From the NCBI GenBank assembly GCA_021732415.1, contig JAKFVC010000028.1, positions 9,187 through 42,888 on the forward strand: DNA of 33,702 nt, given 5' to 3'. The notes under the pieces are model-generated. The model did not search any database. It was given only the letters and a program-made list of their open reading frames with translations, and was not told where the DNA came from. The DNA is from Planctomycetaceae bacterium. GTDB taxonomy: Bacteria; Planctomycetota; Planctomycetia; Planctomycetales; Planctomycetaceae. Below, piece by piece: positions 24,005 through 27,100 of this stretch. Position numbers and translations under genes: made by a program. The stretch's first letter is position 1. Each line of letters starts with the position of its first letter.

Positions 24005-24574
24005 ATGCCAGTCCCTGAGACGACTCTGGCGAAACAGGTGGCCATCTACGCCCTGCAGTTGGGGCGCGGAAATCTTGTGGCTTTGGGGAAGCTGTACGAC
24101 TTGACCGCCGAGCGTTTGATCCGCTACTCGAAGACGCTGACTCGCAATACGTCGGATGCCGAAGACGCTCTGCAGGCGGCCATGTGTCGGGTCTCGCAGT
24201 ATCCCGATCAGCTCGCCAAGTCGGAATTTCCCTGGGCCTACTTTCTGAAGATCGTCCGCAACGAAACGTTGAAGGTGATCCAGCGTCGCCCCGTAGTAAC
24301 TGCCGCAACGGAATCAAACCTCGTCTGGTCGGTCGATGAGCCGGGCTTGGAACGGGAAGAGAATGCCGCGTGTGTCCGCGCCGCCTTGCAGCGATTGCCC
24401 GCCGAACAAGCCGAGGTTGTTGTCTTGAAGATTTGGGAAGCGATGACGTTTGCCGAGATCGCCGTCGTCTTGGGGGAATCCCAGAACACGGTGGCCAGCC
24501 GGTATCGCTACGCCATTGAGAAGTTGACTCGTATCCTGGAGCCCCTGGCTCGCGAGGAGTCTGCTCATGGCTAG
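24005..24574 (+). CDS. ECF-like sigma-70 family RNA polymerase sigma factor
   Basis: 189 residues. Region 2 lies at about 25-95 (LYDLTAERLIRYSKTLTRN, SDAEDALQAAMCRV, FPWAYFLKIVRNETL, VIQRR). Region 4 is at about 125-180 (ALQRLPAEQAEVVVLKIWE, MTFAEIAVVLGESQNTVASRY, then RYAIEKL). No region 1.1 or 3 is present, as in extracytoplasmic-function sigma factors. ATG 24005 is chosen; the frame is open from 23942 but nothing upstream looks like protein. The next gene starts inside this one: its ATG is 8 bases before the end of the TAG stop, which suggests translational coupling. The partner would be expected to act with the sigma factor. ECF group and target promoter are unknown. Confidence 0.88.
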   Translation: MPVPETTLAKQVAIYALQLGRGNLVALGKLYDLTAERLIRYSKTLTRNTSDAEDALQAAMCRVSQYPDQLAKSEFPWAYFLKIVRNETLKVIQRRPVVTAATESNLVWSVDEPGLEREENAACVRAALQRLPAEQAEVVVLKIWEAMTFAEIAVVLGESQNTVASRYRYAIEKLTRILEPLAREESAHG

Positions 24575-24983
24575 CCCCAGTCGCAATGCGATGTCACGCA
24601 CGGAAGAATGGCTGCGGAGCCATGAAGAGTGGCCGGTCCCCAACGACGACCTGCGAGCCAAGATCATCCGCACGGCCAGTTCGGCTCAAGTGCAGGCGCA
24701 GGGGAAGAACCGTTCGCAAACTGTGCTGGTGATGTGCGTCGTGTTCTGTGGTGCCGTTACCTGGATCATGCAGGACATCGCGGGCGGCATGCAGGATCCG
24801 CAGTCGTCCGCCTTGCTGGCAGTCGCCGATGATGGCTGGGCCCGCCCGATTGATCAACAAGTTCAGTTTCTCACGACCAGCCAGCCTCATCGCAGTTACG
24901 ACTGGGCCTTGGTTCAAGCTCATATGGCCTGGCGCCAAGTCGTGTTGCAGCGTCTGACGAATCCGTTCTGGCAATCGCTGTAG
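24567..24983 (+). CDS. Small membrane protein coupled to the sigma factor
   Basis: 138 residues of no family I recognise. The N-terminal 45 residues are hydrophilic (SRTEEWLRSHEEWPVPNDDLRAK fragments around W15 and W22). One hydrophobic helix lies at about 50-72 (TVLVMCVVFCGAVTWIM), and an about 65-residue C-terminal part contains several tryptophans. The single-helix topology, the position after an ECF-like sigma factor and the 8-base overlap are what an anti-sigma factor would show. But the zinc motif HxxxCxxC of ZAS-type anti-sigmas is absent, so that role is a guess from context. The TAG stop at 24981 lies in the GTAG foot of the REP-like hairpin at 24980. Confidence 0.7.
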   Translation: MASPSRNAMSRTEEWLRSHEEWPVPNDDLRAKIIRTASSAQVQAQGKNRSQTVLVMCVVFCGAVTWIMQDIAGGMQDPQSSALLAVADDGWARPIDQQVQFLTTSQPHRSYDWALVQAHMAWRQVVLQRLTNPFWQSL

Positions 24984-25049
24984 CCGAAGTCGCCAAGACT
25001 TCGGGGGCGTGTCCTTAACGCTGCCAGAACTCTTGGCGAGTTCTGCTAC
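24980..25049. repeat. Head-to-head pair of GTAG REP-like hairpins forming both stop codons
   Basis: Plus strand, from 24980: GTAGC, then CGAAGTC-gccaa-GACTTCG. Minus strand, from 25049: GTAGC, then AGAACTC-gccaa-GAGTTCT. The two stems differ at two positions and are compensated in both partners. TAG of the left foot ends the 24567 gene, and TAG of the right foot (25048-25046) ends the amidohydrolase on the minus strand. Confidence 0.9.
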
Positions 25050-25891
25050 AGTAGATTCAGCAGTTCGCGGCTGTCGCGGTAAATCAACCGCTCGATGGCA
25101 TCGCGATTCAGCCGCGGTAGAGCGCTCCCCTCGAGCATCTCGTTCAGTTTTCTCAAGCCCGCAACGGTCGCATTGACGGTCGTGAACGGGTAATCGGTTC
25201 CGAACAGGACCTTATCCCACACGCCATATTCCTGAACCAGCATCAGGCTGTGATAGCATTGAAATGGACGGTAATGCAGCGCGCTCAAATCGCAGTAAAC
25301 ATTGCGATGCTTCCGCGCGACGACGATGGCTTCCCCCTCATAAGGATGTCCCAAATGAGCCATGATGATCCGCACTTCGGGAAACCGCGTTGCTACCGGA
25401 TCGAGATGTCGCGGCAACGTGCACTCCAGCGGGGCCTGCGCAACGAAGGTCGTTCCCGTGTGCAGCAAGACGGGCAATTGGTGACGCGTGGCGTACTCCC
25501 ACAGGTAATCCAGTTCGGCATCTTGCGGATGAAAGCCCGCATACATCGGCAGCAGCTTGATGCCACGTAAGCCGTACTCGCGATGTCCTTGTACCAGTTC
25601 ATCCTGCCAGCCGGGTTGAGTGGGATCGACCGACAGAAAGCCGATCAAGGTGTCAGGATGTGCCGCGACGTAATCAGCGACGTACCGGTCATCCACCCAC
25701 AGGCCACTCAGTCGAGCCTTCCCACCAAACACGACGGTAACGGTATCGTCGGGCGCCGATTTGCGGTATTCGTCATAATGGACAGTCAGGTCGAGTTCGG
25801 TGCCGGCTTTTGCTCCACGCGCTTGCTGGCGGAAGTCGTCGCTGAAGTGGAGTGGATACTTCCAGGCGTGACTATGAACGTCGAAGATCAT
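25046..25891 (-). CDS. Amidohydrolase family protein (amidohydrolase 2, TIM barrel)
   Basis: 281 residues of the amidohydrolase superfamily branch that holds metal-dependent hydrolases and decarboxylases. DVHSHAW at residues 4-10 is the HxH metal motif at strand 1. GLRGIKLLPMY follows, then PVLLHTGTTF and IIMAHLGHP with the histidines of strands 5 and 6. LFGTDYPFT contributes the aspartate of strand 8. It starts at ATG 25891, with no strong ribosome binding site. It is a monomer-length enzyme without signal peptide, presumably cytoplasmic. It lies next to the enolase-superfamily enzyme across the REP pair at 25911, suggesting a shared catabolic task. Substrate unknown; lactone hydrolysis or decarboxylation are possibilities from family membership only. 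Confidence 0.88.
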   Translation of the reverse strand: MIFDVHSHAWKYPLHFSDDFRQQARGAKAGTELDLTVHYDEYRKSAPDDTVTVVFGGKARLSGLWVDDRYVADYVAAHPDTLIGFLSVDPTQPGWQDELVQGHREYGLRGIKLLPMYAGFHPQDAELDYLWEYATRHQLPVLLHTGTTFVAQAPLECTLPRHLDPVATRFPEVRIIMAHLGHPYEGEAIVVARKHRNVYCDLSALHYRPFQCYHSLMLVQEYGVWDKVLFGTDYPFTTVNATVAGLRKLNEMLEGSALPRLNRDAIERLIYRDSRELLNLL

Positions 25892-25910
25892 GATGGACTC
25901 GCCGAATGTC

Positions 25911-25974
25911 GTAGCCCGACTCTCTGAGTCGGGTGCGTTTTACGAAGAATACCCGACTCAGAGAGTCGGGCTAC
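25911..25974. repeat. Perfect inverted pair of GTAG REP-like hairpins
   Basis: Bases 25911-25934 and 25951-25974 are exact 24-bp reverse complements around a 16-base spacer. Each arm begins with GTAG and folds itself as CCCGACTC-tct-GAGTCGGG. This is the cleanest REP-type pair in the window. It lies in the 93-base gap between the amidohydrolase start and the end of the enolase-superfamily gene. Confidence 0.92.
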
Positions 25975-25984
25975 AAGCAGGCGA

Positions 25985-27100
25985 TTACATCGCATGCTCG
26001 CGAACGACCGCCCAATCCACATCCACGCCCAATCCCGGGCGATCGGTGATCGTAACTCGAGGCCCATCGATCGCGATCGGATTGGTGACGATACGAGCCG
26101 CGTGATATTCCGGGCCCAACATGTCTCCGGGGAATTTCTCTACCTGCATATTGGGGCACGCCACCACGACGTGGGCCATCGCCGCAGTGCCGATGTCCCA
26201 TTCCAGGTTGGATCCGATGCTGCAACCCACTCCGTGCTGAGCTGCGAAGTCAACAATCGCTTTCGACTTGCTGATGCCGCCGTTCTTGCCGGGATAAATG
26301 CTGATCAAGTCGCACGCATTATTTAGCACTAGTTCCCGCGCGTGATGCATGTCGAAGCACATATCATCGGCCATCACGGGGGGCTTCGTTTCTCGTCGCA
26401 CGCGGGCCAGCCCGTGATAGTCGCCGTCGGGCGTGGGCTGTTCGTTGAGCGAGATATTGCAGTCGGCGAGTTCGTTGACGCAATGTATGGCCGTGTCGAC
26501 ATCCCAGCCGCAATTGGCATCGATCGTCAACTTACGATGCGGACCAATTGCCTCGCGGACCGTTCGCACTCGTTCAATATCGGCCGCAGCCGGGCCACCC
26601 ACTTTCACCTTGATCGTTTGAAACCCTTCGCTGACGAGTTCGAGAGCCCGTGCCCGCGCATGATCCGGAGCATAAGCGCCCATCGAGAAGCGACACTCGA
26701 CCGTCAACGGCCGCACGGCGCCTCCCAGCAGTTCATAGACCGGTTTGTTGGCGGCCTTCCCGGCGATATCCCAGCAGGCCATCTCAATGGCCGCCTTCGA
26801 AAACCAGTTGTGCCGCGAGGTCCGGTCCATGCGCCGGTTGATGTCTTCGATGTTGGTCGGGTCGGCCCCCATGATCGCGGGGCCGAAGGTATTATCGAGA
26901 ATCGCCTTGGCTCCCCAGACCGTCTCACCACTCCACAGCGGCATGACAGTTGCTTCCCCGACTCCTTCGATCCCGGCGTCCGTTCCGATACGCACCAGGA
27001 TGTATTTGGATTCAATATGCCAACCGAGCGACGTCACCATATGACGGGCGGGTTTCAGCGGGATCCGGACGGCGGTCGTTTCGAGATGCGTGATCTGCAT
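25985..27100 (-). CDS. Enolase superfamily enzyme, mandelate racemase/muconate lactonizing type
   Basis: 371 residues. The N-terminal capping domain (1-115) leads into a TIM barrel. Barrel residues visible are the KxK pair K164/K166 (FQTIKVKVGG), metal ligands D194 (TIDANCGWD), E220 (SLNEQPTPDGD) and D245/D246 (MADDMCFD), and K272 (YPGKNGG). The KxK plus lysine arrangement points to the muconate cycloisomerase-like subgroup rather than the glucarate dehydratase one. ATG 27100 is used; an ATG at 27145 is possible but would run through the candidate operator at 27123. It is divergent from an MFS transporter and followed by an amidohydrolase on the same strand. The natural reaction (cycloisomerisation, racemisation, epimerisation or dehydration) is undetermined. 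Confidence 0.92.
   Translation of the reverse strand: MQITHLETTAVRIPLKPARHMVTSLGWHIESKYILVRIGTDAGIEGVGEATVMPLWSGETVWGAKAILDNTFGPAIMGADPTNIEDINRRMDRTSRHNWFSKAAIEMACWDIAGKAANKPVYELLGGAVRPLTVECRFSMGAYAPDHARARALELVSEGFQTIKVKVGGPAAADIERVRTVREAIGPHRKLTIDANCGWDVDTAIHCVNELADCNISLNEQPTPDGDYHGLARVRRETKPPVMADDMCFDMHHARELVLNNACDLISIYPGKNGGISKSKAIVDFAAQHGVGCSIGSNLEWDIGTAAMAHVVVACPNMQVEKFPGDMLGPEYHAARIVTNPIAIDGPRVTITDRPGLGVDVDWAVVREHAM

Follow-up and report, generated by a model that had tools for sequence, protein, structure and literature searches.

A head-to-head GTAG REP heterodimer at the 3′ ends of two convergent planctomycete genes, with a different occupant between the same feet in a sister genome

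The closest described counterparts of the element reported here are the GTAG-tagged REPs, a superfamily whose account in PMC3733652 (BMC Genomics 2013;14:522), in the sections drawn on here, combines a GTAG foot, a short stem–loop and high copy number with a position mostly between genes, near the 3′ ends that REPs mostly adjoin, and with head-to-head dimers of conserved spacing, including heterodimers with different stems. The same sections place Planctomycetes among the hosts of GTAG REPs and report that their termini often supply a TAG stop codon (termed ‘opal’ there; TAG is amber). REPINs, in the excerpted part of PMC3116915 (PLoS Genet. 2011;7:e1002132), are paired inverted REPs that are repeated as one unit. 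The BIMEs of E. coli, in the portion of PMC2817692 used here, are non-identical inverted pairs of Y and Z2 units, which flank a rayt gene. Passages of PMC8266576 describe TnpA-REP enzymes that bind the single-stranded GTAG hairpin and cut at CT (in one case also at CA), with GTAG helping to choose the cut site; they also describe a bulge in the E. coli REP. Orthologous RAYT genes are surrounded by differing REPs according to the excerpt of PMC3686654 considered here, in which we met no replacement of REPs at sites other than RAYT genes.

We compared these systems with a hairpin pair from a Planctomycetaceae bacterium (G000; a 9.87 Mb draft genome, 98% complete), in a stretch of 33,702 nucleotides that we call the window. 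Comparison of the amidohydrolase gene beside the pair places the nearest named relatives of G000 among Planctomycetota metagenome-assembled genomes, with ‘Planctomycetaceae bacterium’ (RYN_439) at the top (98% identity). The pair fills the gap between two convergent genes. The left one (24567-24983, + strand, 138 amino acids) lies downstream of an ECF sigma factor, had no match in a Pfam search and has orthologues in 2 of the 58 relatives searched (91% identity in G003, about 60% in G001); the right one (25046-25891, − strand, 281 amino acids) encodes the amidohydrolase (Pfam Amidohydro_2). The TAG of the left gene (24981-24983, + strand) lies inside the foot of one hairpin and that of the amidohydrolase (25046-25048, − strand; CTA on the + strand) inside the foot of the other, so that sequence and open reading frames confirm the statement of the initial annotation that GTAG hairpins at 24980-25049 end both genes. 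An arrangement in which both feet of one dimer end two convergent genes was not met in the sections of PMC3733652 cited above. A second REP pair, of another family that we call B (GTAGCCCGACTCTCTGAGTCGGG and its inverse), lies at 25911-25974, is also present at the same place in the sister genome and has no stop-codon role in the window.

Each hairpin consists of a GTAG foot and an 8-bp stem with the loop GCCAA. A unit of type alpha (24980-25004, + strand) and a unit of type beta (25025-25049, − strand) of family A are separated by a spacer (25005-25024), and the whole dimer measures 70 nt. On the + strand it reads CTGTAGC-CGAAGTC-GCCAA-GACTTCG-G ... C-AGAACTC-TTGGC-GAGTTCT-GCTACAG; set side by side, alpha on the + strand is CT-GTAGC-CGAAGTC-GCCAA-GACTTCG-G and beta on the − strand CT-GTAGC-AGAACTC-GCCAA-GAGTTCT-G, with the dinucleotide CT upstream of both feet. 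As noted earlier, two pairs distinguish the stems, each of them compensated (C-G/A-T and G-C/C-G), and the loop is the same; the 7-bp hairpins first described are real, with a stem of 8 bp because the C after GTAG also pairs. An inverted-repeat search returned arms of 28 nt (24978-25005 and 25024-25051) that are 86% complementary. Folded singly as DNA, the units form a hairpin that leaves GTAG unpaired (−8.5 and −7.3 kcal/mol, z −5.0 and −5.3; 0 of 200 shuffles equally good). The 91-nt region containing the pair folds with z −7.6, and the 70 nt folded together favour a single long hairpin that is mismatched where alpha and beta differ. No T-run follows the hairpins at 24980-25049 on either strand, so they fail as intrinsic terminators; 24500-26100 holds one terminator-like site, in the B pair, against 1.1 expected. 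An Rfam search of 24500-26500 at E up to 1 gave three matches, all below the gathering score and none on the A pair. These (MIR6297, PK-repBA and mir-7961, at 25909-26023) lie on or beside the B palindrome, and a known RNA family was rejected, the sub-threshold matches being taken as chance.

The pair belongs to a family repeated well beyond chance in G000. Its 17-base core, at up to two mismatches, occurs 81 times (22 exact, 24 with one mismatch and 35 with two) against 11 times for the reversed control, which bears out the earlier assignment to inverted GTAG palindromes of the REP/BIME type. A 25-base pattern at the same tolerance has 38 matches in G000 and 182 in the sister G003 (control 0); among the 119 genomes searched, five others have one match each and 112 have none. 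The 40 loci that we fetched cover all 46 places with at most one mismatch and 11 of the 35 with two (five of the loci were two-mismatch loci), leaving 24 two-mismatch places unfetched. They contain 57 units at up to two mismatches, or 60 once three-mismatch partners are added; the GTAG foot is exact in 29 of the 57, and by a simple codon-score caller only one of the 57 lies wholly within a gene.

Head-to-head dimers number 17 in these loci, and 14 of them span 65-74 nt. Typing of the units rests on the inner variable pair; each of the 12 dimers that could be fully typed joins alpha to beta, and the remaining 5 of 17 have at least one untypable unit. The fetched sister loci, some of them orthologous to the first set, give alpha plus beta in 6 of 6 fully typed dimers, and the 25-base search gives it in 7 of 8 among the matches listed. 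Across the 60 units, pair 5-23 is AT in 25 and CG in 20, and pair 9-19 is CG in 28 and GC in 23. Because all 12 typed dimers are alpha plus beta, the two compensated differences in the window correspond to the two ends of a single composite element, and since both stem types occur across the family, local compensatory evolution of the window hairpins is rejected. Family-wide compensation of the stems implies that hairpins are maintained in the family; it did not originate at the window locus and does not show selection there. The covariation that the initial annotation attributed to selection on folding is thus kept at the level of the family and given up for the locus, where it reflects two family-wide unit types.

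With an unpaired GTAG beside a palindrome, many copies, a mostly extragenic position and regularly spaced inverted pairs, family A matches the superfamily of PMC3733652 in each of the features cited at the outset, and the window element is a head-to-head REP heterodimer of this family, REPIN/BIME-like in form. The sequence of family A was not met in the text of that paper as drawn on here, where the family tables are figures. Like the REPINs of the cited part of PMC3116915, the window pair consists of inverted REPs repeated as one unit, but its ends are consistently of different sub-types, and a cognate RAYT was not found in four draft genomes. Alpha and beta are comparable to the Y and Z2 units of E. 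coli BIMEs as given in the portion of PMC2817692 cited above; in contrast to these, the consensus stems of family A are perfect 8-bp palindromes, and a rayt link was not found for A.

Family B is more abundant, with 491 matches to GTAGCCCGACTCTCTGAGTCGGG in G000 (control 0); its sample comprises 40 sites from the first exact matches among those listed, not every B site. Two pyrimidines lie upstream of the foot in 17 of 29 A units and 65 of 79 B units, which is compatible with the CT/CA cutting reported in the passages of PMC8266576 used here; the exact dinucleotide CT is in the minority (4 of 29 and 17 of 79). Intactness of the foot was dropped as a measure of age, because the B pattern includes the foot and its loci were chosen among exact matches, while the foot is unconstrained in the A pattern. 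Several loci hold more than one palindrome. The palindrome GTAGCGGAATCTCGTAAGAGTTCCGC is nested within an A pair at L059 (1998-2136), an A pair at L067 (1490-1575) sits between the apparent leftover feet of an E-type element that occurs alone in L241, and a D palindrome is nested in a B remnant at L275. At two B sites (L205/L292 and L199/L271), the sister has a longer inverted-repeat element that starts TTTTAGCCACGGAT.

We then asked how often a foot serves as a stop codon, calling genes in the fetched loci with our own codon-score caller rather than taking them from annotation. The 80 A and B loci hold 148 units, 113 of them with GTAG, and 61 have a same-strand gene ending within 300 nt. The TAG of the foot is the stop in 8 of the 61, the commonest single distance (6 of 59 without the window), and genes read through past the foot in 2 of 61. 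A uniform model on the 41 units at 0-30 nt gives p of about 4e-5; leaving out the two units of the window raises it to 0.0015. Both values are only rough, because insertion within a gene end turns the foot into a stop from many positions. There is a modest excess of feet acting as stops across the sampled A and B units; the earlier suggestion that reuse of the foot reflects insertion at, or preference for, gene ends was overstated. Outside the window, the foot-stops of family A are only two low-scoring open reading frames (59 and 158 codons), so that supplying stops is no habit of this family and the window is its only well-scored case. Among the 80 loci, it is also the only one in which both feet stop well-scored genes. 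TAG is the commonest stop in the REP loci (49 of 114 called genes), with a similar share near and far from the elements (19/43 vs 30/71). By gene orientation, A sites are convergent in 4 cases, unidirectional in 19, divergent in 7, at a locus edge in 12 and inside a gene in 1; for B sites the counts are 6 convergent, 27 unidirectional, 6 divergent and 5 at a locus edge. A preference for convergent gene ends is rejected, as neither set of sites is concentrated there.

The part of this locus most worth keeping is that sister genomes have different occupants between matching feet. G000 and G003 are about 88% identical at the window locus. In G003 (L165/L250) and in L084 (RYN_439), which may represent a single genome or species, the gap between these two genes holds a REP pair, GTAGCCTGACTCTCCAGAGTCGGG and, inverted, GTAGCCTGACTCTTCAGAGTCGGG, that is a variant of family B. 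The feet of this B-like pair align with those of the A pair (left, CG[C/T]TGTAGCC; right, CTACAG[T/C]A[G/A]ATTCAGCA). The sister amidohydrolase ends at the same TAG, there on the foot of the B-like pair; the left gene ends at another TAG, two codons earlier (FWQ* vs FWQSL*), with a 4-nt length difference. The GTAG stop of the right gene is therefore shared with the sister, and that of the left gene is local. The initial annotation had named relatives with the same stops and no hairpin as evidence against it; that combination was not seen as worded, and the sister’s right-gene stop instead lies on another hairpin family. In the sections of PMC3733652 drawn on here, we met no case of sister species in which the same feet enclose different REP families.

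More distant relatives vary further. In G001 (L167; L086), the amidohydrolase is one codon longer and stops at the foot of GTAGGACAGGTTTTCAACCTGTCC, which has 186 matches in G001 and 0 in the three remaining genomes of the genus that were searched, and in L085 (92%; G002 counterpart L166) it stops at TGA without a REP foot. Among 80 amidohydrolase orthologues, 19 have a TAG stop, 10 of these in GTAG, and by eye a palindrome starts at the foot-stop only in L084, L086 and L098; an automatic palindrome test, which accepts neither T-G pairs nor long loops, for that reason counted L086 alone. With a palindrome on the stop in 3 of 80, wide conservation of a REP stop at the end of this gene is rejected. 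L098 is a distant relative (79% identity) in which the amidohydrolase TAG is the foot of a long GTAG...CTAC palindrome.

To see how the window compares with other sites, we set 77 sites against the sister genome. A sister locus was fetched for 58 (one sister-locus search returned 30 loci, and more places matched), and 31 with tight flanks were classed by simple rules, leaving out 10 without a flank or not collinear and 17 with a flank gap of more than 60 nt. The same family is present at 17 of the 31 (A, 6/10; B, 11/21, with B variants counted as B); of the rest, 9 have another palindrome and 5 have none. Among the 14 changed sites, another palindrome is thus present in 9, compared with 7 of 23 control intergenic gaps (Fisher p 0.086, with the window, known beforehand, counted among the 9), so that replacement at shared sites is not shown to rise above background, and the sequence comparison is suggestive of an exchange of occupants. 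We found no clean empty allele of the window element. At the two sister sites that look empty (L048/L256 and L212/L284), the junction lacks GTAG and is in neither case clean.

As a mover of family A, the initial annotation had pointed to a RAYT transposase. Candidate genes are present, with 13 Pfam Y1_Tnp matches in G000 and 24 in three congeners, but in these four draft genomes, in which some loci are cut by contig ends, none of the 37 matches has GTAG-footed A units on both sides. Two Y1_Tnp genes are surrounded by family B, at G000:C21:11914-12875 (L042) and, in G003, at L315; the Y1_Tnp loci L031 and L296 are flanked by family C, and several other Y1_Tnp genes sit inside inverted repeats of their own; none were found around those at L037, L038 and L300. 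A single three-mismatch family A match lies near L313. At L039, one side of the gene has an A unit with GTAG and three mismatches, and the other a three-mismatch match without a foot, taken as chance; this gene was rejected as the motor of family A because its own palindrome (‘H’) is repeated several times around it. It encodes a Y1-transposase of 312 amino acids (925-1863, − strand), which towards its C-terminus resembles the DNA-binding domain of DnaA (PF08299 just below the cut-off, TIGR00362 far below its own). Many different Y1_Tnp genes coexist in the genus (loci L031-L043 and L294-L317), and as several lie in their own inverted repeats, many REP-like systems may coexist per genome.

Why both genes stop on the element can be explained in several ways. 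It is quite conceivable, at close to even chances, that GTAG palindromes are simply abundant near gene ends and that one pair happened to fall in frame twice. Family B alone has 491 matches, TAG is the commonest stop in the REP loci (49/114), and the double well-scored foot-stop occurs only at the window among 80 loci. What such a coincidence accounts for less readily is that foot-as-stop, at 8/61, exceeds the neighbouring distances (by the rough p values given above) and that two congeners also end the amidohydrolase on a REP foot. That excess, together with the amidohydrolase TAG common to G000 and its sister despite different REP families and the rarity of read-through (2/61), could also be produced by an enzyme that prefers an existing GTAG or TAG stop, the stop coming first and the foot later. 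We consider such targeting very unlikely: both empty-looking sister sites are without GTAG, stop usage is alike near and far from the elements (TAG 19/43 and 30/71), the sister stop at L211/L285 is a TGA 7 nt before the foot, and the foot-stop in G001, one codon further on, is not the same TAG as in G000.

Selection at this gene pair for a bidirectional terminator or a protector of mRNA 3′ ends, by which each species would keep a hairpin here, appears unlikely. Hairpins of three families lie at the end of the same gene in three of four congeners, the region folds strongly (z −7.6), and effects of REPs on termination and on mRNA stability have been reported (PMC3733652, in the sections cited). 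Against this, the A hairpins lack a T-run and the sole terminator-like site, in the B pair, is the one expected by chance (1 vs 1.1), G002 ends the amidohydrolase with TGA and no REP foot, and copies also lie between co-directional and divergent genes. An effect of the element on mRNA ends is possible.

We consider it very probable that the locus is occupied by a GTAG REP heterodimer (REPIN) of 70 bp, head-to-head in form, from a family at the level of the genus, placed at the 3′ ends of convergent genes. Its family, dimer form and stops, and the different occupant in the sister, are seen directly; a nest-and-collapse history is proposed. A small non-autonomous palindrome would have been moved by a Y1/HUH RAYT (TnpA-REP) enzyme through single-stranded DNA and would have settled where two convergent genes meet at their 3′ ends, a position that tolerates extra DNA. 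On touching a gene end, it would provide a clean stop in one frame of three, because GTAG contains TAG and the other two frames of the alpha hairpin, read directly from its sequence, are open. In the window both feet would have come to act as stops in this way, on the left with the 4-nt length difference from the sister. One REP would have nested in another, and a deletion between matching feet (GTAGC) may then have removed the older one; units of A, B and D all begin with GTAGC, so that deletion from outer to inner foot would leave exactly the state of the window.

More doubtfully, we hypothesize that the gene end serves as an exchange port, at which REP families swap between the same GTAG/CTAC feet, a species-specific 186-copy REP independently ends the same gene in a third congener, and the stop is handed from one selfish element to another. 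Exchange could proceed by foot-to-foot deletion after nesting, or by cutting and rejoining at the foot. The window case itself is mostly ordinary, a known kind of element with a known side effect. What it adds is a heterodimeric GTAG REP family in a planctomycete genus, and a set of alignable sister genomes with several REP families in which REP loss, nesting and change of occupant can be watched at gene ends. These genomes allow a test of whether stops are borrowed from mobile elements by accident or through site preference and, if the exchange port is real, the gene-end sites would be a common resource for which REP populations compete.
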